Of a stretch of DNA of 64,000 nucleotides, positions 24,519 through 38,525 are shown in pieces (the first letter of the stretch is position 1; each line of letters starts with the position of its first letter). Where the stretch lies: positions 62,001 to 126,000 of the forward strand of contig NZ_VKDE01000031.1 of the NCBI RefSeq assembly GCF_007097485.1, written 5' to 3'. The notes under the pieces were generated by a model. That model was not told where the DNA came from and did no database searches. It saw only the letters and a list, made by a program, of their open reading frames with translations. The translations under genes were made by a program, and so were the position numbers. Origin of the DNA: Carboxylicivirga sp. M1479. GTDB taxonomy: Bacteria; Bacteroidota; Bacteroidia; Bacteroidales; Marinilabiliaceae.

Positions 24519-25094
24519 ATGTTAGGAAAGAAGTATACAGATAATGAGTTGTTGGATGCAGTGTATGCCAGAGATAGCAAGCTAATTAAGTATGTTATGA
24601 AATTAGTCTGGAATCAAGTATGCTCAACTGTTGTTAATAATAGTGGTAATAAAGAAGATGCCATGCAAATTATGCAGGACGCCTTTATTGCTATATACTC
24701 AAAAAAAGAAAAGCCAATTTTAACGAGTAAATTCTCAACATATTTCTTGTCGGTTTGTACTAATTTATGGAATTATGAATTACGTAAGCGACAGGTTACA
24801 CCTGCTTATCAAACACTGAATGATGAGATACCTGAATTAGAAAGTGAAATTCACGAGAAGGAGCTTTTTGAAAAGAGAAGACAATTGTACTTAAAGTATT
24901 ACCACAAAATTCAGAAGGTTTGCCAAGATGTGTTACGTTTGGTATCTATTGGTTTTACAAATGAGCACATTGCTACTGAATTGGCATTTAGTTCCGTTGC
25001 ATATACCAAGAATAGAAAGTCGATGTGTAACAAGAAATTATTGGAAATGATTAAATCTGACCCGGAATATAAAAAGTTGAAGTATGGATTATAA
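24519..25094 (+). CDS. RNA polymerase sigma-70 family (ECF-type) sigma factor
   Basis: A 191-residue ECF-size sigma factor. Region 2 is visible as NKEDAMQIMQDAFIAIYSK and the FSTYFLSVCTNLWNYELRKR helix (core-binding and -10 recognition). Region 4 is the C-terminal CQDVLRLVSIGFTNEHIATEL and AYTKNRKSMCNKKLLEMI helix-turn-helix. An AAAGGAT ribosome-binding site lies near the start. The next gene overlaps by 11 bases and has the layout of an anti-sigma factor. In Bacteroidota, sigma factors of this type often sit beside TPR-CHAT proteins, as here. Confidence 0.88.
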   Translation: MLGKKYTDNELLDAVYARDSKLIKYVMKLVWNQVCSTVVNNSGNKEDAMQIMQDAFIAIYSKKEKPILTSKFSTYFLSVCTNLWNYELRKRQVTPAYQTLNDEIPELESEIHEKELFEKRRQLYLKYYHKIQKVCQDVLRLVSIGFTNEHIATELAFSSVAYTKNRKSMCNKKLLEMIKSDPEYKKLKYGL

Positions 25095-25821
25095 CAAAAA
25101 AATATTGCAATTTTTTACGAATGAACTTGACCCTCTTCAAAGTCAAGAATTAAAGGTGGAGATGGCCAACGATGCCAACGTGGAGGAGGATATGAAGTTG
25201 CAGCAAGAGGTTTTATTTGCCATAGCTAATCAGCAAGATGATAATAGTGATTTTAGACAACAGCTTGAGGAAATAGGGAATGAGTTTTTAGAAGAGGAAG
25301 AAAAACCCAAGCATTCGTTTACAATTAACTATTGGCTTGCAGCAGCATCAGTTGTGGTGGTAATGGGCCTTGGTAGTTATTTAGGATTACTAAAGAATGA
25401 TAATTACTCAGGTAACCAGGCTTTTGTTGAGTATTATGCGCCCTATGGAACTGATATGACCGTGAGGGGAACTGAGCAAGTAAGTAATTTCGACAAGGCT
25501 TTTGAGTTATATCAATCTGGTGATATGAGCAGAGCTATTGAATCGTTTAATGATTTAGCCGATGAAAATGAGGAGTTGGTAGGCTATTTCAAAGGCTTGT
25601 GCTATATTGAGTTAGGTGAAATTGAAAAGGCCAAGACTCAGTTGGCTGCAGCACAAAAAATAGCAATCTTCTACGAAGATCAGATTAATTGGTACCTGGC
25701 GCTTTGTCATGTTAAACAAGAAGAGCAGCAAGCTGCTGAACTTCTATTGACTCAAATACTAACATCAGGTAATCAATATTCAAGCAAAGCTAAAGAATTA
25801 CTAGAAAAGCTGGATCTTTAA
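25084..25821 (+). CDS. Membrane TPR protein, probable anti-sigma factor
   Basis: A 245-residue protein that overlaps the sigma factor by 11 bases. The N-terminal 80 residues form a soluble acidic helical domain (ILQFFTNELDPLQSQELKVEM, similar to anti-sigma N-termini). One membrane helix follows (INYWLAAASVVVVMGLGSYLGLL, about residues 81-100), then a periplasmic domain with about three TPR units (FELYQSGDMSRAIESF, FKGLCYIELGEIEKAK, WYLALCHVKQEEQQAAELL). The topology suits sequestering the sigma factor inside and sensing through the TPRs outside. No zinc-binding anti-sigma motif was seen. Its stop codon overlaps the stop of the convergent CHAT gene within a TTAA. Confidence 0.75.
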   Translation: MDYNKKILQFFTNELDPLQSQELKVEMANDANVEEDMKLQQEVLFAIANQQDDNSDFRQQLEEIGNEFLEEEEKPKHSFTINYWLAAASVVVVMGLGSYLGLLKNDNYSGNQAFVEYYAPYGTDMTVRGTEQVSNFDKAFELYQSGDMSRAIESFNDLADENEELVGYFKGLCYIELGEIEKAKTQLAAAQKIAIFYEDQINWYLALCHVKQEEQQAAELLLTQILTSGNQYSSKAKELLEKLDL

Positions 25822-28800
25822 TGCTTTCGCTTTCGATCGTATAAGAATAATAGTATAACCGATAACATAGCAAATGCCAAGAGGTAAACAAAAATACCTT
25901 TTGGCATTTTTTGTTGAATAGGGCTTGTGTTTCCTGCTAAAATATAATTGGCCCAGTAGTATGGATGCGATTTAATGCCATCAGCTTGGGATATGTAGGC
26001 AAGTTTGCTGGCTTGAAGTGCCTTGTTCTTAGTTAAGCCTGTTTCTAGTTGTGCATAAAGTCGTTCTGTAATATCCGCTCCGCTTTGATCATTAACTGGC
26101 CATAAGGTCATTATTTGCGACTCAACACCCGCGTATGTAAAAGCCCGGGCAATACTTAATAAACCTTCACCTTTTCGTTGGTTACCATAACCGGTACTAC
26201 AGGCACTAAGTATGGCTAATGGTGATTTAATACTGTAATTGTATAATTCTCTTGCTTTAAAACTACCTGAAATACTATCTTCACTTGCAAAAACCAGTTG
26301 AGAGTTAAAGGGTTGAATTTCGTTGTTTAGGGTATGCATAGCAAGGTGTAGAATTGCATTTTTCTGCATGTTATCTATAAAGTTGCGCTTATTGGCTGTT
26401 GGGCCAATAAAAGCCTTGGTAGTGAATGATTTCTTTATCGACTTAATTTCTTTTTTAGCTCCAGATAATGGCATTAACAAAGAATCTAAGTGAAGAGATG
26501 TGCTTGTTTGGATGGAGTCGCTTGATAGCTTACCGTAATATTGAGGGGCGAATGCAATTACCTTTGAAAAGGTGGCAGGCTCTGATGCTTCATCATTAAA
26601 AAGCGCAGTGTTGTACAAATAGCTAATAGCTTGCTTTTTTATTAGCCAGGGATAATTTTTAAAGCGTGGTTTCTGTTTTGAGCAATCTTTGGTTAAAAGA
26701 ACTTCAAAAGGTAAATAAGAAAGAACGCCATGTGGCACAATTATAAGTTCTTTATCGTCAGTCAAAGGTTCAGTCTTATCAAAAAGAAGTGTGTATAGTT
26801 TGTAAGATGCATTTGCAAATGCTTGCATGTGCTCCAAACCATGTTGACCAATAAAAGGTGTTGATATTTCTTCTGTAACAAGCTCCATCGCCTTGTTAAA
26901 TTCATCACCGATTGGGATGATGTCAAATTGATAGTCAAACTTATTGATCGTACATCTGAACAACTCTTCCTCAGTTTGGTAGTAGTCAATCACAACCTGG
27001 TTCTCTTTTAGGCGTTGCTGAATTTTCTCAATAGTTGGAAATGGATTAATTGAATTGTCGTATTTCGAACTCGGGTACTGGCCCTCAATTAGCTTATTCA
27101 AACTATCTATTTTAGCCATATTTTCATTCATCTGTGAACTGAAATAGCTAACGGTACTACTATCTGCGTTATTTGAAAATACGGCTTCATTGTACCTAAT
27201 TTCGTATCTGTCGTACTGCTCTTTAAATTGATTGATTGCATTAATGAGTTCGATGGGAACCCCGGAATTAAGTTTGTATTGTTTCTCTGCTACGCCTTGT
27301 GTAAGGGCATGTGCTTTGCTCGATTGAATGTTTTCATAAATTTTATGGATGTACTTATCGCCTCCCAGCTTATTATATAGCGCCATATTTATTCTGGTGC
27401 TTAGGAGTGTAAAATCGTAGAATTGCTCACCACTTACTAGGCGGTCACGATCATAAGTTTGTTTGTTTCTAAATCTTTGAAGGCTCGCATTTGCAATATC
27501 TAAAATCTTTTCAGATTCTTGAAGTAGCTCTAAGTCGCCATTTTGTTTGTACCAGCGATATTGGTTTTGGGCCAGCTTCATATTAATGTTCCGATACAAG
27601 ATGCCAGTTTTGGTATCGTGGATATTGGAGTTTTTATCGTACAAGTATGGGTATAGGTTTCTCAAATTGGAATTGGCCTCAGTAAGTAAACGATAGGCTT
27701 TGTTATATTTCTTGGTTTGGCTATAGCAAATAGCTTGTTCGTATTGATTGTCAATTTTTAGGTATGGAGTGTAATTCTTGTCCTTATTTAAAATATCTGC
27801 AATGTTTTCGAGGTGGTAAAGTGCTTGAGTATACTGCTCTAACTCCAGGTAGGAGAGAGCTATTGTATTTTCAAAAACGCGTTTGCTTTCTTTGGTGCTT
27901 GAATATTTGTCGAAGGTGTATTTGGCTGAATCAATGTACAGGTATGCCATTTCATCGAGCTGTAATTTAGCTGACATTTTTGCCATAAAAGTATAGGCGG
28001 TTAAAAGTGATCTTTTGTTATTATTTTTACTTTCTTCTATATCTCGCTTGGCATAGTACCACATTTTATCGTATTGCTGCAGGTCGTAATAGCAATTGGC
28101 CAAAGTGTTGATAGCATAGCTTCGGACAGATGTGGAGCTCTGATTCAGTTTTGTTATGGATAGAACTCTGGTCGACAGGTGAATGGCTTTGGTGTAGTTT
28201 TTCTGATTTCTCGCATGTTTTGCAAGACCATTGAGTAGACTTACGTATTCATTGATGAAGTGTTGGCTCTTAATGAGGTAAAAATGTTCCAGATCATCAA
28301 TGTATTTTTCTGCCTTGTTATTCATGCCCATGTGGTAAAGTAAATCGACGTAATTACCTATTAGGCCATGGTTGTTGATGTTAACGCTTTGGTTAAAAGG
28401 TTGTGAAAGTGCTTCCTGAAATAGGTGGTAAGCTTTTTCATTTTGTTTAAACTTGTTATAAAGTTGTGTGGCGTAGACGTTAACAGAGATGTTGTAGTTT
28501 GCGTAATTGTGATTTGTTGACAGGTTATTCTTTTCTAATTCATAGGATTTAATCACGTATATTAAACGTTTTTGCTGATTGCCTTCATTTCCATATACAA
28601 CACTTAGGTTGTGGTAGATTTTTGACCTGACCGAATCGTGTAGAAACTCTGAATTATTTTCTTCTAGCAAAGAGGTGAGAATAACTTTTGCTTCATTGTG
28701 TTTTTTGATGGGTATGGATAAACTGCCTATGTATAACGAGATGTATTGACGGAATAGTGGTGAGTACATTTCAGCGTCAAATTCATTTATAAATTGGTAA

Positions 28801-29051
28801 GTTTTATGCATCCCACCAGAGAAAATGGAAGCCCTTATGGTTTTGTATAAAAGACGAAACTCTTCGTTATTATAAAATTTAGTGTTTCCTAATTTTAAAA
28901 TTTGCTGGCCTAATAGGGTAGCTTCCTCGTATTTACCTTCAGAATACAATGAATTAAAATATATTATGTTAGTGTCCGTTTCTTGCGCGTAGCACTTTTT
29001 TTGACTCGCTAAGAGACAGGTAATCAGTGTTATAAAAAAAAGAATTTTCAT
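25818..29051 (-). CDS. Exported TPR-CHAT domain protein
   Basis: A 1077-residue protein with an N-terminal signal peptide (MKILFFITLITCLLASQKKCYA), about 600 residues of TPR-like helical repeats, and a C-terminal CHAT domain (about residues 740-1040). The catalytic pair of this caspase-like protease family is present: His 906 in ILHLAMHT and Cys 951 in LAILSACSTGYG, followed by GEGLLSIARAFTYAG and LWPVND. A final membrane helix (IFVYLLAFAMLSVILLFLY) and a basic tail RKRKH anchor it, so the TPRs and protease would face the periplasm. It converges on the sigma/anti-sigma pair and is divergent from the GG-peptide gene, 83 bases away. A link to sigma-factor signalling or to the exported peptide is inference. 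Confidence 0.9.
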   Translation of the reverse strand: MKILFFITLITCLLASQKKCYAQETDTNIIYFNSLYSEGKYEEATLLGQQILKLGNTKFYNNEEFRLLYKTIRASIFSGGMHKTYQFINEFDAEMYSPLFRQYISLYIGSLSIPIKKHNEAKVILTSLLEENNSEFLHDSVRSKIYHNLSVVYGNEGNQQKRLIYVIKSYELEKNNLSTNHNYANYNISVNVYATQLYNKFKQNEKAYHLFQEALSQPFNQSVNINNHGLIGNYVDLLYHMGMNNKAEKYIDDLEHFYLIKSQHFINEYVSLLNGLAKHARNQKNYTKAIHLSTRVLSITKLNQSSTSVRSYAINTLANCYYDLQQYDKMWYYAKRDIEESKNNNKRSLLTAYTFMAKMSAKLQLDEMAYLYIDSAKYTFDKYSSTKESKRVFENTIALSYLELEQYTQALYHLENIADILNKDKNYTPYLKIDNQYEQAICYSQTKKYNKAYRLLTEANSNLRNLYPYLYDKNSNIHDTKTGILYRNINMKLAQNQYRWYKQNGDLELLQESEKILDIANASLQRFRNKQTYDRDRLVSGEQFYDFTLLSTRINMALYNKLGGDKYIHKIYENIQSSKAHALTQGVAEKQYKLNSGVPIELINAINQFKEQYDRYEIRYNEAVFSNNADSSTVSYFSSQMNENMAKIDSLNKLIEGQYPSSKYDNSINPFPTIEKIQQRLKENQVVIDYYQTEEELFRCTINKFDYQFDIIPIGDEFNKAMELVTEEISTPFIGQHGLEHMQAFANASYKLYTLLFDKTEPLTDDKELIIVPHGVLSYLPFEVLLTKDCSKQKPRFKNYPWLIKKQAISYLYNTALFNDEASEPATFSKVIAFAPQYYGKLSSDSIQTSTSLHLDSLLMPLSGAKKEIKSIKKSFTTKAFIGPTANKRNFIDNMQKNAILHLAMHTLNNEIQPFNSQLVFASEDSISGSFKARELYNYSIKSPLAILSACSTGYGNQRKGEGLLSIARAFTYAGVESQIMTLWPVNDQSGADITERLYAQLETGLTKNKALQASKLAYISQADGIKSHPYYWANYILAGNTSPIQQKMPKGIFVYLLAFAMLSVILLFLYDRKRKH

Positions 29052-29134
29052 TTCTTTAAAAAAAGTTCAAAAAAAGGTGTTACGTTTTCTGATTTCTGCA
29101 ATTAACCTATAGAAACCATTAATACGATAATGAT

Positions 29135-29278
29135 ATGATTTTTTTAGGCAAAGCAAAAAAACAGGGGCAATTTAAAAAGTTTAATGCAAAAGATACTGCC
29201 TTTCTGAAAAAGATAATTGGGGGTGATGACAGTTCAAAAGACGAAAAAAGTGGTACAGACAACACAATAAAGATTTAA
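29135..29278 (+). CDS. 47-residue peptide with double-glycine leader
   Basis: A short frame starting at ATG 29135. Residues 1-30 form a lysine-rich leader ending FLKKIIGG; leucine at -7 and isoleucine at -4 from the Gly-Gly fit double-glycine leaders cut by C39 peptidases. The predicted core is the last 17 residues (DDSSKDEKSGTDNTIKI), polar, with no cysteine, so neither lanthionine nor disulfide chemistry is expected. The downstream HlyD and C39-ABC exporter genes on the same strand are the obvious processing and export machinery. It may be a bacteriocin-like or signalling peptide. An ATG at 29130 is followed by an immediate stop and is not used. Confidence 0.65.
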   Translation: MIFLGKAKKQGQFKKFNAKDTAFLKKIIGGDDSSKDEKSGTDNTIKI

Positions 29279-29353
29279 GATTTTCATGTTAATCATCAAT
29301 GGGTTTTGGACGAGCCAGATGTATAACATTTTAAAAATTTATAACTATCCCAA

Positions 29354-29476
29354 TAGTTAAGGCTTGAACGCAGGCCATTAAAGGACCAAAGAAGATGGAG
29401 GTGTTTCCCTTAAGATTCCCGATTCTTATACTATGCAAATGCATACACTCCATTTTCTTAGTCCTTAATAGAACTA
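29354..29476. repeat. Structured element R3, copy 1
   Basis: The outer stem is TAGTT / AACTA. Inside it are a small hairpin (GGCTTG aacg CAGGCC) and a long arm: ATTAAAGGAC pairs with GTCCTTAAT (one bulge), then AAGAAGATGGAG with CTCCATTTTCTT. The apical region holds TTTCCCTTAAGATTCCC and a TATGCA/TGCATA hairpin. Same architecture as copies 2-4. Confidence 0.75.
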
Positions 29477-29541
29477 AGGTAGTTAAGGAATAAAATACCA
29501 GTTAGTAGTTTAACTGGCATCATTGAATTTGAAGATCCCGA

Positions 29542-29664
29542 TTAGTGAAAGCCTAAAAGTAGGCTTGTTAAAGAACCATAGGAGGTGGAGAAGTTTCCCT
29601 TAAGATTCCCAATTCTTATTTTCACCCCACCTTACTCTTTCCACCTCCTGTCTTTAACTACTAA
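29542..29664. repeat. Structured element R3, copy 2
   Basis: The outer stem TTAGT / ACTAA, hairpin AAGCCTA aaag TAGGCTT (7 bp), arm GTTAAAGA / TCTTTAAC (8 bp perfect), then AGGAGGTGGA / TCCACCTCCT (10 bp perfect). The apical region repeats TTTCCCTTAAGATTCCC from copy 1. The stem sequences differ from copy 1 while complementarity is kept. Confidence 0.8.
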
Positions 29665-29684
29665 GGATTAAAGTATAGTAATTA

Positions 29685-29760
29685 GCCTGAAAGCAGGTGG
29701 AAAACATAGATAGTGAGAACGAGTTGCTTGAAATAGATTTGCATTTTAAGCAGTTCTCTA
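29685..29760. repeat. Structured element R3, copy 3 (shorter)
   Basis: The hairpin CCTG aaag CAGG is followed by an arm GAGAAC / GTTCTC that continues as GCTTGAAAT / ATTTTAAGC. The outer stem is not clear and the apical TTTCCC block is absent, so this is a reduced or diverged copy. Confidence 0.6.
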
Positions 29761-29826
29761 AAAAAAACGAATTTGTGCGAGAGCTTTTACGATTGTAAAA
29801 GTGTAGATTAATGTATAACTAACCCG

Positions 29827-29945
29827 ATTTGAGTGCCTGAAAGCAGGCTTTTTGAAGGAAAAGAAGGTGAGCTGGTTTTCTATATGAATTATCCCTTTTC
29901 TCACCCCGTTTCATATCGTATGACTCACCTTCTTCACCCTCAAAT
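29827..29945. repeat. Structured element R3, copy 4
   Basis: Outer stem ATTTGAG / CTCAAAT (7 bp perfect), hairpin GCCTG aaag CAGGC, then arm AAGAAGGTGAG / CTCACCTTCTT (11 bp perfect). It ends 22 bases before the start of the small HTH gene, and its loop contains CCCTTTTCTCACCCC, similar to copy 2. Confidence 0.78.
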
Positions 29946-29967
29946 TGTGTATTAAACAAGGAGAGAT

Positions 29968-30216
29968 TTGGCGCAGCAAGAAGTGCACAAAACAATATCA
30001 CTGATTGATAACGAAATCAGACAGAAAGAAACCGGTTCACCAATAGAGTTAGCCGGGCGCCTGCATATGTCTGTACGTATGCTTTATTTCTATTTAGATA
30101 TGATGGATTGTTTGGGAGCAAGAATTATTTTTTCCAAGCAATTGAATAGTTTCGTATATCAACAGGGAGGTTTTTTTAAAGATGGTATACGTTGGATTGA
30201 ATATCAGAGGGTATAA
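29968..30216 (+). CDS. Small helix-turn-helix protein
   Basis: An 82-residue protein starting at TTG 29968, chosen because AAGGAG lies five bases upstream, a strong ribosome-binding site for this genome. Residues 20-55 resemble a winged-helix or HTH unit (GSPIELAGRLHMSVRMLYFYLDMMDCLGARIIF), followed by a small beta wing (FVYQQGGFFKDGIRW). It could bind DNA and control the adjacent peptide/exporter genes, but the family is not one I recognise with certainty. It lies between the R3 elements and the HlyD gene, on the same strand as both. Confidence 0.7.
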   Translation: MAQQEVHKTISLIDNEIRQKETGSPIELAGRLHMSVRMLYFYLDMMDCLGARIIFSKQLNSFVYQQGGFFKDGIRWIEYQRV

Positions 30217-30308
30217 TTTTTTATAAAACGCAAATTACTATCATACAACTTGTGTTTAGGGCTGGTCTTCAATAAAAAATGCTATTTTCGAAATGTAGCT
30301 TTTAAAAT

Positions 30309-31481
30309 ATGCCAGTTATAAACCCCAAGCAAACGCCGTTTAAGAGTAAGTATCAGCATTATACTAAGGTTAACTACCGTGGATATTTGCTATATACCGT
30401 GGTGCTTGTATTTGTATTCTTAAGTCTTTTGTCACTGCCGTTTATTTCAGTCGATGTTTCGGTGCAGAGTAGTGGCGTTATCCGATCCTTCAACAAAAAG
30501 ATGGCTATTTCAGCTCCGCTAAGCGAACGAGTGAAACAGATTTTTATTAGCGAGAATTCCAAAGTACAAGCGGGCGATACCTTGCTTGTTCTTCAGCAAC
30601 AGGCACTTGATAAGAGAATTGATAATAACCTGCAGCAAAGGAAAATACAAAGCAATTATGTGGGTGATTTAAACGCCTTGTTAAGCGGTAAACACAACAC
30701 GCATCAACTTACACCCTTATATCAAAAGCAGTTAGACGAATACGACGGATCATTGGTTAAGTTGGATAGGAAAATTCAAAAATTAAGGGTAGACTTTCAG
30801 CGGACATCTGATTTGTATAAGGATGGTGTATTGCCCTTAAGTACATTTCAAGAGGATTCTTTTTTGCTTAATGAAGCACAAGATGAATTATTGTCGTATC
30901 AGACCCTTACAAAAGCCCGTTGGGAAGAAGAGCGTAAAGAGTATGTGCTATCGATTAATGAATTGGAGAACCGTGTTGAGAACCTAAAGCACGAAAAGAA
31001 CAAGTATTTAATTGTCGCACCTTTAAGTGGCAGTATTATTAATTTTAATGGTGTTGCTGTCGGAAATTTCGTTAACGAAAATGAACCCATTGCCTATTTA
31101 TCGCCCGAAGAAGAATTAGTAGTGGATTGCTATGTCTCTCCTTCTGATATTGCTTTTATCAAAGAGGGTATGACGGTGCGATTTCAGGTGCATGCTTATG
31201 ATTATAACCAGTGGGGTTTGTTGGAATCGCATGTGTTTGATGTGGCCGATGATGTGACTCTCTATAATGGTCAGTATTGTTATCTGGTCAGGTGCCGTTT
31301 TAAAAAGGATTATTTAGAGTTGAAAAATGGCGTTAGAGGATCCATGAAAAAAGGAATGAGCCTAACAGGTCGCTTTATAATCACCCAACGCACCTTATTC
31401 CAGTTGTTGTTCGATAAGGTAGATGATTGGATGAATCCCAAAATACAAACGGATATTGATCTAAACTTACCATCGGCATGA
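30309..31481 (+). CDS. HlyD-family secretion (membrane fusion) protein
   Basis: A 390-residue periplasmic adaptor with one N-terminal membrane helix (about residues 26-46, LLYTVVLVFVFLSLLSLPFI), a biotinyl-lipoyl-like half-motif (VDVSVQSSGVIRSF and the later APLSGSIINFNGVAVGNFV), a long coiled coil between them (about residues 95-215), and a C-terminal beta-barrel. It bridges an inner-membrane ABC exporter to an outer-membrane channel. Its stop overlaps the start of the C39 ABC gene by four bases (ATGA), so the two proteins are coupled. No TolC-like gene is nearby. Confidence 0.92.
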   Translation: MPVINPKQTPFKSKYQHYTKVNYRGYLLYTVVLVFVFLSLLSLPFISVDVSVQSSGVIRSFNKKMAISAPLSERVKQIFISENSKVQAGDTLLVLQQQALDKRIDNNLQQRKIQSNYVGDLNALLSGKHNTHQLTPLYQKQLDEYDGSLVKLDRKIQKLRVDFQRTSDLYKDGVLPLSTFQEDSFLLNEAQDELLSYQTLTKARWEEERKEYVLSINELENRVENLKHEKNKYLIVAPLSGSIINFNGVAVGNFVNENEPIAYLSPEEELVVDCYVSPSDIAFIKEGMTVRFQVHAYDYNQWGLLESHVFDVADDVTLYNGQYCYLVRCRFKKDYLELKNGVRGSMKKGMSLTGRFIITQRTLFQLLFDKVDDWMNPKIQTDIDLNLPSA

Positions 31482-33628
31482 ATGTGAAAGTACAACAATA
31501 TGATGCAACAGACTGTGGTGCTGCTTGTTTGGTGTCGGTCGCCAGGTACTACAAACTGCGTTTGCCGATTTGGGATATTCGACAACAAGCAGGAACCAAC
31601 CAGGTTGGAACCAGTGCTTTGGGCTTGGTTAAGGCTGCAGAAAGTATTGGTTTCGATGCCAAAGGTGTTGAGGTGAGTATTGATGACATAAAGGAGATAC
31701 CATTGCCGGCCATTGCTCATGTTCAGTTACCGTCGGGCAATAAGCACTTTGTGGTTGTTTATAAAGTTGGCAAGAAAAAGGTAAAAGTGATGGATCCGGC
31801 TATAGGGCAGATGTACCAACTTAGTCTGGAGGAATTTGAAAAGCGGTGGTCGGGTGTTTTTATATTGCTGATTCCATCTGCTAATTTCCAAACAGGAAAT
31901 CGTAAAGTTTCTAATTATAAACGCTTTTGGCAGCTTATGCGCCCACATCGAAGTGTTTTTGTACAATCGACTTTTGGTGCTTTGGCTTTTTCAGTTTTAG
32001 GTTTATCTACAGCATTTTACATTCAAAAGCTAAGTGATTTTGTATTGGTTGGTCATAACCGAAACCTACTTCATTTGCTTGGCGTCATATTTTTAGTTGT
32101 AATAGCCGTTCAGTTTGTCATTGGCTTTTTGCAATCGTGGTTTGTGTTAAGAGTGAGCCAAAATATCGATACAAGCCTCATATCGGGCTATTTCAGGCAT
32201 TTGATAAAATTACCACAACGGTTTTACGACAGCATGCGCATTGGTGAGCTCATATCACGGGTGAATGATGCTGTTAAAATCCGTAATTTTATTAATCAGG
32301 TGGCGGTTGAATCGGTGGTTGATGCTTTAATTATTGTCATTGCCTTTGCAGTAATGATGCTTTTTAATTGGAAAATAGCCTTGCTAACGTATAGTGTAAT
32401 CCCCATTTACATGCTTCTCTTTGGCCTTGTCAATGCGTTCAATAAAAAGCTGGAGCGCATGAAGATGGAAGAGTCAGCCGGCCTGGAAATTCAGCTGGTA
32501 GAATCTTTGCGAGCCGTTAAAACCATTAAGCAGATGGGGGCGGAAGAGCACTTTGCCGAGGCAGTAGACCAAAGCTTAATTAAGGTATTGGATAAAGTTT
32601 ATCGTTCGGGTAAGCTTGATGTGATATCCTCTTCGATGTTACAGTTGATTAATCGGCTTTTAACACTTGCTATACTTTGGATGGGAGCTTACTTTGTTAT
32701 GGATACCCAACTGACGGCTGGTGAGTTAATGTCATTCTTCGCCATCTCGGCCTATTTTACAGGGCCAGTATCGCGTTTAGCAGCACTTAATAAAAATGTA
32801 CACGGCGCACTCATAGCCATGGATCGTTTATTTGAGTTATTAGAACTGAAGCACGAACAAGATGAGCACAGAAGCATTGAGATGCGGGCCGAAGATGTGG
32901 GCGACATTGTGTTTAAGGATGTTGACTTTTCCTATACCCTTGAGCAAAGTTTGTTTAACAAGCTTAACATGTTGATGCCGGCCAATAAAATATCTGTTCT
33001 ATTGGGTGATAGCGGCTCCGGTAAATCAACCATTGGCTCATTAATCCAAGGTTTGTATCCGATTAACAAAGGGCAGTTATGCATTGGACAATACGATGTG
33101 AAAAATGTTGTTTTGGGTGACTTACGCCGTGTAGTGGGTATCGTACCGCAAAACATTGAGCTTTTTGCCGGTAATGTTATTGATAACATAGCCATAGGTG
33201 ACCCTCAGCCAGATACCCGTCGGGTTATTGATATTATTCATCAGTTAAAGCTAGAGGAAACCATCAATAATTTGTCCGATGGCTTGTATACCTGGTTGGG
33301 TGAGAATGCCACTCAGTTATCGGGAGGACAACGTCAGAAATTAGCCATTGCCCGGGTATTATACCTTAATCCACAAGTAATAGTTTTTGATGAGGCCACA
33401 TCTTTTCTCGATGATCGTTCCGAGTCACTTGTGAAGGATCTGATTGTAAGCTTAAAAGATCAGGGCAAAACCATTATTCTGGTGGCGCATCGCCTGAGTG
33501 TCATCGATATTGCCGACCAGGTATTTGTCTTTGAGCAAGGGAAAATTATTCAATCGGGCAGTATTGAAGCTCTTAAGCGCGATGTGAATGGGCGTTTCGC
33601 CGAAATGATGAAACATCACTATTCTTAA
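31478..33628 (+). CDS. C39-peptidase-containing ABC exporter
   Basis: A 716-residue transporter of the bacteriocin/RiPP export type. The N-terminal C39 peptidase has the full catalytic set: oxyanion Gln 7 and Cys 13 in QYDATDCGAACL, His 90 (KHFVVV) and Asp 106 (MDPA). Six membrane helices follow (about 160-430), then a nucleotide-binding domain with Walker A GDSGSGKST, intact signature LSGGQRQKLAIARVL, Walker B VIVFDEATSFLD and H-loop VAHR. It would cut a double-glycine leader and export the core peptide with the HlyD partner. The only clear substrate nearby is the 47-residue peptide at 29135. Confidence 0.95.
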   Translation: MNVKVQQYDATDCGAACLVSVARYYKLRLPIWDIRQQAGTNQVGTSALGLVKAAESIGFDAKGVEVSIDDIKEIPLPAIAHVQLPSGNKHFVVVYKVGKKKVKVMDPAIGQMYQLSLEEFEKRWSGVFILLIPSANFQTGNRKVSNYKRFWQLMRPHRSVFVQSTFGALAFSVLGLSTAFYIQKLSDFVLVGHNRNLLHLLGVIFLVVIAVQFVIGFLQSWFVLRVSQNIDTSLISGYFRHLIKLPQRFYDSMRIGELISRVNDAVKIRNFINQVAVESVVDALIIVIAFAVMMLFNWKIALLTYSVIPIYMLLFGLVNAFNKKLERMKMEESAGLEIQLVESLRAVKTIKQMGAEEHFAEAVDQSLIKVLDKVYRSGKLDVISSSMLQLINRLLTLAILWMGAYFVMDTQLTAGELMSFFAISAYFTGPVSRLAALNKNVHGALIAMDRLFELLELKHEQDEHRSIEMRAEDVGDIVFKDVDFSYTLEQSLFNKLNMLMPANKISVLLGDSGSGKSTIGSLIQGLYPINKGQLCIGQYDVKNVVLGDLRRVVGIVPQNIELFAGNVIDNIAIGDPQPDTRRVIDIIHQLKLEETINNLSDGLYTWLGENATQLSGGQRQKLAIARVLYLNPQVIVFDEATSFLDDRSESLVKDLIVSLKDQGKTIILVAHRLSVIDIADQVFVFEQGKIIQSGSIEALKRDVNGRFAEMMKHHYS

Positions 33629-36690: not shown

Positions 36691-37490
36691 TACCGCAGAG
36701 GGCGTAAAGTATTGCCTCCATTGTATAATTCTTTCTCAGCGTACACCTTTAACTCCGCGGTTAAATATTTTCACTCTTTACCGCAGAGGACGCGAAGAGC
36801 GCAGAGGATTACCGTTGTGTAGTCTTAACGTTCTTTTTCAATTCACGGTTTATTGTTTTTCCATATAGGAATGAAGATGTCTTCATTGAATAATTCTTTC
36901 TCTGCGTACTCCTTTAACTTCGCGGTTAAATATTTTTACTATTTACCGCAGAGCACACGAAGAGCGCAGAGGATTACCGTATCGTAATCTTTATGTTCTT
37001 TTTTACATCACGGTTAATTGTTATTTCAAAAAAAAGTGAAGATATTTTTATTGTTTAACACTTTCTTTGCGTACTTCTTTAACTCTGCGGTTAAATATTT
37101 TTGCTTTTTACCGCAGAGAACGCAAAGAGCACAGAGGATTACCGTTGTGTAGTCTTAACGTTCTTTTTCAATTCACGGTTTATTGTTTTCCATATAGGAA
37201 TGAAGATATTTTTATTGTTTAACTCTTTCTCAGCGTACTCCTTTAACTCTGCGGTTAGAGTTTTTGCTTTTTACCGCAGAGAACGCAAAGAGCACAGAGG
37301 ATTACCGTTGTGTAGTCTTAACGTTCTTTTTCAATTCACGGTTTATTGTTTTCCATATAGGAATGAAGATATTTTTATTGTTTAACTCTTTCTCAGCGTA
37401 CTCCTTTAACTCTGCGGTTAGTGTTTTTTTACTTTTTTACCGCCGAGGACGCCAAGAGCGCAGAGGATTACCGTTGTGTAGTTTTTACTT
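36685..37490. repeat. Tandem ~163-bp repeat array with palindromic junctions
   Basis: About five units begin with TTACCGCAGAG at roughly 36778, 36943, 37108, 37271 and 37437, preceded by a degenerate unit near 36690 and a solitary start near 36369. Each unit includes AGGATTACCGTTGTGTAG, CAATTCACGGTTTATTG, a CATATAGGAATGAAGAT block and ends with AACTCTGCGGTTA. At every junction CTCTGCGGTTA faces TACCGCAGAG, forming an inverted repeat across a short T-rich spacer. Units 4 and 5 are nearly identical. The last unit ends against the stop codon of the YCF48-like gene. Apparent frames with FTAEN-type peptides are by-products of the repeat. Confidence 0.88.
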
Positions 37491-38525
37491 CATCAGTATT
37501 GAAATACGCGCTACCCTGCCATCGGAGCCAGCAGCATAAGCCATTAGCGTACCATCAATTGATCGAATGGTGTAGTAGCCTTCGTCACCTCCTTTGTGCC
37601 AAGTTAGGCCGTTATCCTGCGAGTAGTCAAAACCTGTTTTTCCCATGGCAAGCGACAGGCTGGTGCTTCCGTTGTTAAAATGTTGCACACATGAGCGGAA
37701 ACCACGTGGCATCTGCTCGGCCAATAACCAGGTTTTACCACCATCCTTGGTGTAGGCAGCAATGCTGTCGTTCAGGTGAGGTTGATCAAAATTACCACCA
37801 ACAACAATCCCTTGTTGGCTATTTTTAAATTTGATGGAATAAATGCCATCGTAGTCACTGTTAACCTTGATGGGTGTATCTACAATGTGCCAATCATCAC
37901 CGTCGTTTTTAGTTGTATAAACCCTTGCTTTAGAGCCTCCGGTAGCGAACCAGGCATAACCGTTGCTCAGGTAGTCGATGCAGGTGTTGGAGGCGGCAAA
38001 ATTCGCTTCGTTCTTGTATTTAACAGGCATGGCTTCACAGCGCTTCCACGATGCCCCGCCATCATTGGTTTTGATTAGTAAAAAACGTTCATCGATGGGA
38101 TCAGATAAAGCCAGAGCCCGGTTTGCATCTGCAAAAACCAGGGAATTAAAAAAGAGACCTTTGGACGATAATGAATCCATCACTTGCCAGTCGGCACCAC
38201 CGTTAGTAGTGGCATAAATAAGGGCTGGGTTATTAATGCCCAACACAAATGCCCTCAGCGAGTCAAAGGCGTGGATGCTTCTGAAATCATTTTCCAGTTC
38301 CTCTTTAATGGAGCAATCAATCCAGTTTTTACCACCATCGCTTGTTCGCATAACGGTTCCGCCTGAGCCCGATACCCACACCGTATTGGCATCGATAACG
38401 CTTAAGCCGCGTATGGATGCCTGGCTTGGCGTATTAATTTCGTCGATGGAGAAAGTAAGCTGAGGTGATTTGTTGCAAGCCATTAGGCTGATGATCATAG
38501 CGATAAAGAGGATGTGTCGAAGCAT
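37485..38525 (-). CDS. YCF48-like / BNR-repeat beta-propeller lipoprotein
   Basis: A 346-residue protein with a lipoprotein signal (MLRHILFIAMIISLMAC, lipobox LMAC, Cys 17). The mature part has at least six Asp-box repeats: TSDGGKNW, TTNGGADW, TNDGGASW, TKNDGDDW, TKDGGKTW and SQDNGLTW. These give a beta-propeller of the YCF48/sortilin type. In plants YCF48 helps assemble photosystem II; in Bacteroidota such proteins are surface or periplasmic propellers often annotated as oxidoreductases without support. No partner is adjacent. The repeat array at 36685 runs up to its stop codon. Confidence 0.88.
   Translation of the reverse strand: MLRHILFIAMIISLMACNKSPQLTFSIDEINTPSQASIRGLSVIDANTVWVSGSGGTVMRTSDGGKNWIDCSIKEELENDFRSIHAFDSLRAFVLGINNPALIYATTNGGADWQVMDSLSSKGLFFNSLVFADANRALALSDPIDERFLLIKTNDGGASWKRCEAMPVKYKNEANFAASNTCIDYLSNGYAWFATGGSKARVYTTKNDGDDWHIVDTPIKVNSDYDGIYSIKFKNSQQGIVVGGNFDQPHLNDSIAAYTKDGGKTWLLAEQMPRGFRSCVQHFNNGSTSLSLAMGKTGFDYSQDNGLTWHKGGDEGYYTIRSIDGTLMAYAAGSDGRVARISILMK

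Follow-up and report, generated by a model that had tools for sequence, protein, structure and literature searches.

An apparently undescribed structured RNA element between a double-glycine peptide gene and C39 exporter genes in Carboxylicivirga

In a 64,000-nucleotide stretch of the Carboxylicivirga sp. M1479 genome (hereafter the window), about 690 bases separate a double-glycine leader peptide gene from the gene of a small winged-helix protein, which is followed by genes for a HlyD-type protein and a C39 peptidase ABC exporter (Table 1). What does this spacer hold, and does it act on the genes beside it? A preliminary description of the window had proposed that four structured repeats, under selection as RNA, lie here between the peptide gene and its exporter, and the neighbours are as it claimed (peptide ORF 29135-29278, HlyD, and C39-ABC exporter). 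We find that the spacer contains three copies (c1, c2, and c4) of one structured element and a fragment (c3). On balance, and with moderate confidence, we take the element to be a cis-acting intercistronic RNA that regulates the exporter half of the operon.

Table 1. Features of the locus in the window
Feature	Positions	Strand	Basis or remark
ECF-like sigma factor	24519..25094	+	below curated cut-offs
TPR protein	25084..25821	+	cluster member
TPR-CHAT protein, divergent	25818..29051	-	Pfam PF12770, E 1.7e-46
Promoter-like bipartite motif GTTACG-N12-TGCAATTA	29079..29104	+	upstream of peptide gene; putative promoter
Double-glycine leader peptide gene, 47 aa	29135..29278	+	ORF, read from sequence
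Element copy c1: H1 hairpin, long bulged hairpin, C-rich apical loop 29401-29447	29344..29473	+	
Element copy c2: apical loop 29589-29635, core near-identical to c1	29532..29662	+	
c3: H1-like hairpin only; remnant or unrelated	29685..29698	+	12-nt match
Element copy c4: nearest winged-helix gene; apical loop 29872-29918, most of C-rich core lost	29818..29948	+	
Small winged-helix protein, 82 aa, TTG start, presumed regulator	29968..30216	+	predicted fold
HlyD-type membrane-fusion protein	30309..31481	+	Pfam PF13437, E 7.6e-12
C39 peptidase ABC exporter	31478..33628	+	Pfam PF03412 (E 2.9e-36), PF00664, PF00005

Element copies in the window

Copies c1, c2, and c4 share a common plan, with a small hairpin (H1) followed by a long bulged hairpin whose apical loop is mostly C-rich. 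Their fold z-scores against dinucleotide-shuffled controls are -4.72, -5.85, and -4.42, respectively, and none of 200 shuffles was as good for any of the three. We used two covariance models, R1, built from six relatives plus c1, c2, and c4, and R2, built from clade B (G001, G002, G003, G005, and G007) and G032 only; clade B, G012, and G032 thus lie outside the R1 training set. R1 scores c1, c2, and c4 at 122.7, 103.7, and 109.7 bits, all three being inside its training set. R2, from whose build the window and its closest relatives were excluded, detects c1 at 39.8 bits (E 1.9e-6) and c2 at 29.4 bits (E 5.3e-4), and c4 weakly (17.7 bits, E 0.32).

Three of the four proposed repeats are therefore borne out by folding and by the models, but c3 is not. 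It gives no full-length match to R1 or R2, the match obtained with filters off is limited to the 12-nt H1 hairpin (6.2 bits), and its fold z is -2.77. The c3 arm overlaps a 33-aa ORF whose sole other match among the 14 genomes of the genus has an E of 0.74; we considered this ORF as a decayed peptide gene, but the likeness is by eye only and has no further support. Two matches to the H1 word with one mismatch elsewhere in the same genome (contigs C54 and C67) have flanks without the element and were discarded.

The preliminary description was right that c1 and c2 have the same loop, TTTCCCTTAAGATTCCC, and the outer stems it named are present in the window copies c1, c2, and c4; the 17-row alignment described below scores 26 pairs exclusive of these stems. 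Over 52 nt, c1 and c2 are 87% alike, with 6 of the 7 differences in the 26 stem-side positions and 1 in the 26 loop-side positions. In c4, the segment CTCAAAT has alternative partners as read from the sequence, either the outer ATTTGAG or the inner TTTG-AGG. Tandem multiplication of the module in this genome would explain the copies, of which c1 and c2 retain the loop core and c4 has lost most of it. A leader ORF within the loop, in the c1 and c2 frame, was rejected on reading the relatives, where a TAG in the loop breaks the frame.

Occurrence, conservation, and covariation in relatives

With blastn, the spacer was found in 8 of the 100 relatives searched (own genome counted), all of the same genus. 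R1 finds the element in 15 of 71 family genomes, namely the complete set of 14 from the genus plus one, G032, from another genus. Its scored copies number three in the own genome, every other matching genome has a single one, and the tandem array occurs in no other of the 71. R2 recovers all three of the clade-A loci given to it (G012, G010, and G006, from 8), c1 and c2 of the window, and, in a third genus, G022 (E 5e-5). Because R1 missed G022, the genome counts are lower bounds.

The covariance-model search for neighbours that the preliminary description had proposed places the element beside a double-glycine peptide gene and a C39 exporter in 15 loci, of which 14 were found by model and G022 through synteny and the second model. 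In all 15 (the window, 13 genus relatives, and G022), the slot is the same, running peptide, element, winged-helix, HlyD, C39-ABC. The order of a divergent CHAT gene, peptide, winged-helix, HlyD, C39-ABC, and MATE genes is kept in the 13 genus relatives and in G022, where two near-identical peptide genes stand ahead of one element. Where winged-helix genes have no preceding peptide gene, the element is absent by reading (G039, G022b, and the second copy of G022a), and R2 matches none of four loci with related winged-helix genes in which no peptide gene was found (L081-L084, E<=1). Two loci count against the cis-RNA reading: G030 (in L084) has winged-helix, HlyD, and C39 genes with the element undetectable, and G032 has the element and a winged-helix gene with no exporter detected nearby, on a contig that ends close by. 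In G032, a shortened reading frame replaces the peptide gene, as judged by eye. Across 393 genomes of the order, the R2 matches are the own genome and G233 (E 0.019), and across 395 genomes of the phylum, the R1 matches are the own genome and G745, G579, and G681 (E 0.008-0.05). We rejected these weak distant matches, which have no cluster gene nearby, bar a marginal CHAT match (E 0.009) at G681.

Imperfect hairpins, variable loops, and a tandem arrangement in one genome could also mark the remnant of a mobile or single-stranded DNA element, such as a retron msr-msd, REP/BIME, an integron attC, or IS200/IS605 ends. This origin is extremely unlikely, and the fixed slot and the copy number largely rule it out: the element occupies one place in its own genome, where dispersed copies of the REP/BIME kind were not found, there is one scored copy in 14 of the 15 matching genomes, and the slot is orthologous. 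In addition, the seven neighbouring proteins scanned include no reverse transcriptase, as a retron would have, no integrase, as would go with attC, and no transposase.

Known RNA families do not account for the element either. Rfam 15 has no match in the window at the gathering threshold, a relaxed search of 28900-30400 returned four chance-level matches (best E 0.4), and a relaxed search of seven relative loci returned only tRNA and a model overlapping tRNAs. The parts of the open-access literature available to us on double-glycine peptides and C39 exporters in Bacteroidetes, structured RNAs of Bacteroidales, CHAT proteins with sigma factors, and hairpins of bacteriocin operons contain no description of it. 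The element is thus apparently a structured RNA so far undescribed, and the earlier suggestion of a regulatory leader or undescribed RNA beside the peptide and exporter genes gains support from the orthologues in the same slot.

Is the structure itself under selection? Among six clade-A genomes, the mean pairwise identity is 0.90 in the 5′ part of the element, 0.91 in the apical loop (short by 10 bases in one of the six), and 0.86 in the 3′ arm. The corresponding values are 0.68 for the peptide gene and 0.73 for the winged-helix gene, 0.45 and 0.49 for the spacers before and after the element, and 0.91 for the region preceding the peptide gene. Since the identity of the element is high while its surroundings drift, we conclude that the element is under strong constraint.

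We then aligned 17 elements by hand, following the structure, over 26 pairs, omitting c3 and G009 (identical to G011 in the model alignment); H1 aligns gap-free in all 17 rows. For the null model, inferred substitutions were redistributed on the tree in 150 simulations. Paired cells number 414 of 442 against a null mean of 270 and maximum of 301, counts that are inflated because the between-clade part of the alignment was hand-fitted to the structure. Changes on both sides occur in 23 of the 26 pairs, against a null mean of 6.9 and maximum of 13 in the 150 simulations, and in clade A and the window alone there are 12 double-sided pairs (null mean 2.0, maximum 5). Single-pair covariation reaches E<0.05 in 3 of 26 pairs overall and in 1 of 26 in clade A plus the window, and no non-structure pair is significant. 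With just 3 of 26 single pairs significant, what is supported is the structure taken together; the covariation that the preliminary description anticipated is present at that level and in those few single pairs, and its view that the structure is selected agrees with the excess of double-sided changes over the tree-based null and with the higher identity of the element than of flanking genes and spacers in the six close relatives. Fold z-scores are below -2.8 in 10 of 11 relatives (-4.12, -4.40, -3.88, -5.52, -4.44, -5.29, -5.48, -5.14, -3.98, and -2.87), the exception being G022 at -1.64. Two features by which cis-regulatory structured RNAs are recognized are therefore found here: a conserved structure, taken whole, with double-sided pair changes, and a fixed position relative to a gene set, in 15 loci.

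The palindromes could instead be double-stranded DNA operators bound by the winged-helix protein, with the RNA fold incidental. The protein has a predicted winged-helix fold, and most clade-A genomes carry TTCCCGATT-like words not only in the loop but also in the promoter spacer and ahead of the element; however, the promoter copy of this word is not retained in clade B, and both the double-sided changes and an excess of G-U over A-C fit RNA, so we consider operators decidedly improbable. The excess is 21 G-U against 6 A-C cells (one-sided binomial 0.003, the cells not being independent), or 14 against 6 distinct pair types. Because G-U exceeds A-C, the plus strand is favoured as the working RNA.

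Apical loop and possible modes of action

The loop core reads UUUCCC-n-UUCCC(G/A)A, and two tracts resembling UUCCC are found in it in clade A, clade B, c1, and c2. An unpaired UCCC-type motif is present in the apical loop in clade A, clade B, G032, c1, and c2 and is degraded in c4, and the G022 loop is not C-rich. The G022 loop, together with the fold z of G022 and the c4 loop that is no longer intact, counts against the cis-RNA reading.

Does the loop pair with a downstream start? In clade B it can pair with a AATCGGGAAA-like sequence 12-26 nt upstream of the winged-helix start, with shuffle p values of 0.000, 0.004, 0.014, and 0.030 and 0.134 for G001, among 35 uncorrected tests overall. 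The same pairing was found in 0 of 8 clade-A genomes (p 0.41-0.96), and the p values are 0.20, 0.57, and 0.48 for the window copies, 0.23 for G022, and 0.12 for G032. For pairing with the HlyD start, clade A (TTTTCGGGAAG) has uncorrected p values of 0.018-0.43 in seven genomes and 0.74 in G012; the values are 0.026-0.93 in clade B, 0.31 in G022, and 0.65-0.92 in the window, and p<=0.03 is reached in 1 of 8 clade-A and 1 of 5 clade-B genomes, again among the 35 uncorrected tests. The clade-A site TTTTCGGGAAG may itself be a promoter -7 element. A loop contact with the peptide 5′UTR (AACCTATAGAAACC) is attractive by eye and was rejected, since it lies outside the five best duplex sites of every sequence scanned. 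Because 35 uncorrected tests were made, we keep loop-to-start pairing as a hypothesis for clade B, and the general cis-RNA claim at the moderate confidence given above.

How might a cis-acting RNA work here? The double-glycine peptide gene and the export genes presumably share one transcript, in which the element would sit, dividing the peptide message from the winged-helix/HlyD/C39-ABC message. Most likely it would set or regulate expression of the downstream half, at the translation start or via mRNA processing, and the folded RNA probably tunes the amount of export machinery made. The long stem would present the apical loop core as a recognition surface, whose partner might be a segment close to a start codon downstream (clade B), a trans RNA, or a protein, for which the winged-helix product is a candidate. 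The structure, orthology, fixed slot, and conservation on which this reading is based are observed; from them we infer transcription, the regulatory role, the loop as binding site, and its partner. A more elaborate form of the idea, which we regard as speculative and rather unlikely, is a new RNA family through which the output of a secreted double-glycine signal peptide is linked to its exporter. The loop would be an antisense or protein-sensing arm on the downstream starts, and the tandem array would serve as a decoy or a switch with several inputs, inside a CHAT/ECF/peptide cluster that has a shared promoter motif of its own.

The main rival is control of mRNA processing or stability, in which the transcript is cleaved or partly terminated and the hairpins then guard the 3′ end of an abundant peptide message, so that far more peptide than exporter is made, and the loop is only a docking site for a protein or RNase. 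The hairpins are strong, they lie directly between the peptide and exporter genes in 15 loci, and such an element needs nothing to pair with, in keeping with the window and clade A, in which no partner was found. However, conservation of the loop (0.91) matches that of the stems and goes beyond the need of a plain barrier, and there is no terminator-like site at the long hairpin, a T run being present only downstream of the small H1 of c4. We therefore hold this rival to be possible but doubtful.

Alternatively, the element could act in trans, as a free-standing small RNA or a decoy array whose C-rich loop is the seed; it would then be cut from the operon or transcribed beside it. RNAIII and RsaE are free trans-acting RNAs of Firmicutes with UCCC loops, and the exposed UCCC tracts of the element, two in most copies, resemble possible seeds in a conserved loop that the tandem copies here retain while their stems drift. 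Unlike those RNAs, the element is known from genomic sequence and is always tied to the operon slot in the loci read, and promoter-like matches for the element itself are not above shuffles; an independent small RNA is thus unlikely.

The nearest working analogue of the cis-RNA reading is icaR of Staphylococcus aureus, where a UCCCCUG motif in the 3′-UTR base-pairs with the Shine-Dalgarno region of its own mRNA and so limits translation (PMC3868564). The likeness lies in a C-rich motif acting on a start region, and clade B could act in this way; however, the icaR contact is between 3′-UTR and 5′-UTR, whereas here we have an intercistronic bulged hairpin of another fold with no pairing in the window or clade A. 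The pan and glnA motifs and Bacteroidales-1 (PMC2864571) are likewise structured RNAs from comparative genomics, some in tandem before operons, but the present element has no Rfam 15 family match. If the cis-RNA reading is true, the element would be a new structured RNA family for Bacteroidales, where few link to peptide secretion, and would add a post-transcriptional layer between peptide and exporter in a phylum whose Bacteroidia ribosomes reportedly do without Shine-Dalgarno sequences (PMC9976891). The relatives with one copy and the tandem array here would then make a ready natural series.

Genes and other features of the locus

The motif GTTACG-N12-TGCAATTA precedes the peptide gene in all 15 loci read at a constant length of 26 nt, and the own genome has 3 forward and 0 reverse matches to it (reversed-pattern control, 0). 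It is possibly a shared sigma or regulator site. One of the other matches (C13:32608-32633) precedes another small HTH-like ORF, and the other (C43:189469-189494) an unrelated-looking ORF.

The peptide ORF has no match in Pfam or NCBIfam, and its profile has a single match in each of the 14 genomes of the genus. In the 14 aligned peptides, the leader is conserved up to GG, and the residues beyond, about 13-20 aa and cysteine-free, vary strongly, a pattern suggestive of a polymorphic peptide that serves as a signal or a toxin. Most of the peptides end in K-x-(K/Q/R)-hydrophobic. In most genomes read by eye, the stop codon of the peptide gene is followed by CTTTGGACGA-like words, the window having TTTTGGACGAG at about 29298-29312. 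Bacteroidetocin loci (PMC6671954) similarly pair a small double-glycine peptide with a C39-ABC exporter in Bacteroidetes, but their mature peptides have 42-48 aa with cysteines, and the present cluster adds CHAT, ECF-like, and winged-helix genes.

For the winged-helix product, AlphaFold2 predicts three helices and then four strands (mean pLDDT 91.6). The best PDB fold matches are of the NiaR, BirA, and DtxR types, none at E<=0.001; there is no Pfam match, and searches of PDB sequences with its profile and of PHROGs were empty. The protein might bind the element or the promoter. The C39-ABC exporter scores below the cut-off of TIGR01193. A defence-system role of the locus was rejected, PADLOC having given generic ABC matches only.

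The TPR-CHAT gene is present in all 14 relative loci that have the peptide gene and exporter, and 10 of the 14 stretches fetched from these also yielded the ECF-like and TPR genes. The ECF-like sigma, TPR, and divergent TPR-CHAT genes (24519-29051) are part of a conserved cluster with the exported peptide. Just before HlyD, at 30285-30308, lies a GCTATTTTCGGGA-GTAGC-like sequence common to clade A and the window (window form, TTTTCGAAAT), a possible internal promoter or weak hairpin. Farther downstream, at 37101-37539, the same stretch (MLFTAENAKSTEDYRC...) is repeated in two overlapping ORFs, which suggests a direct repeat of about 160 bases.
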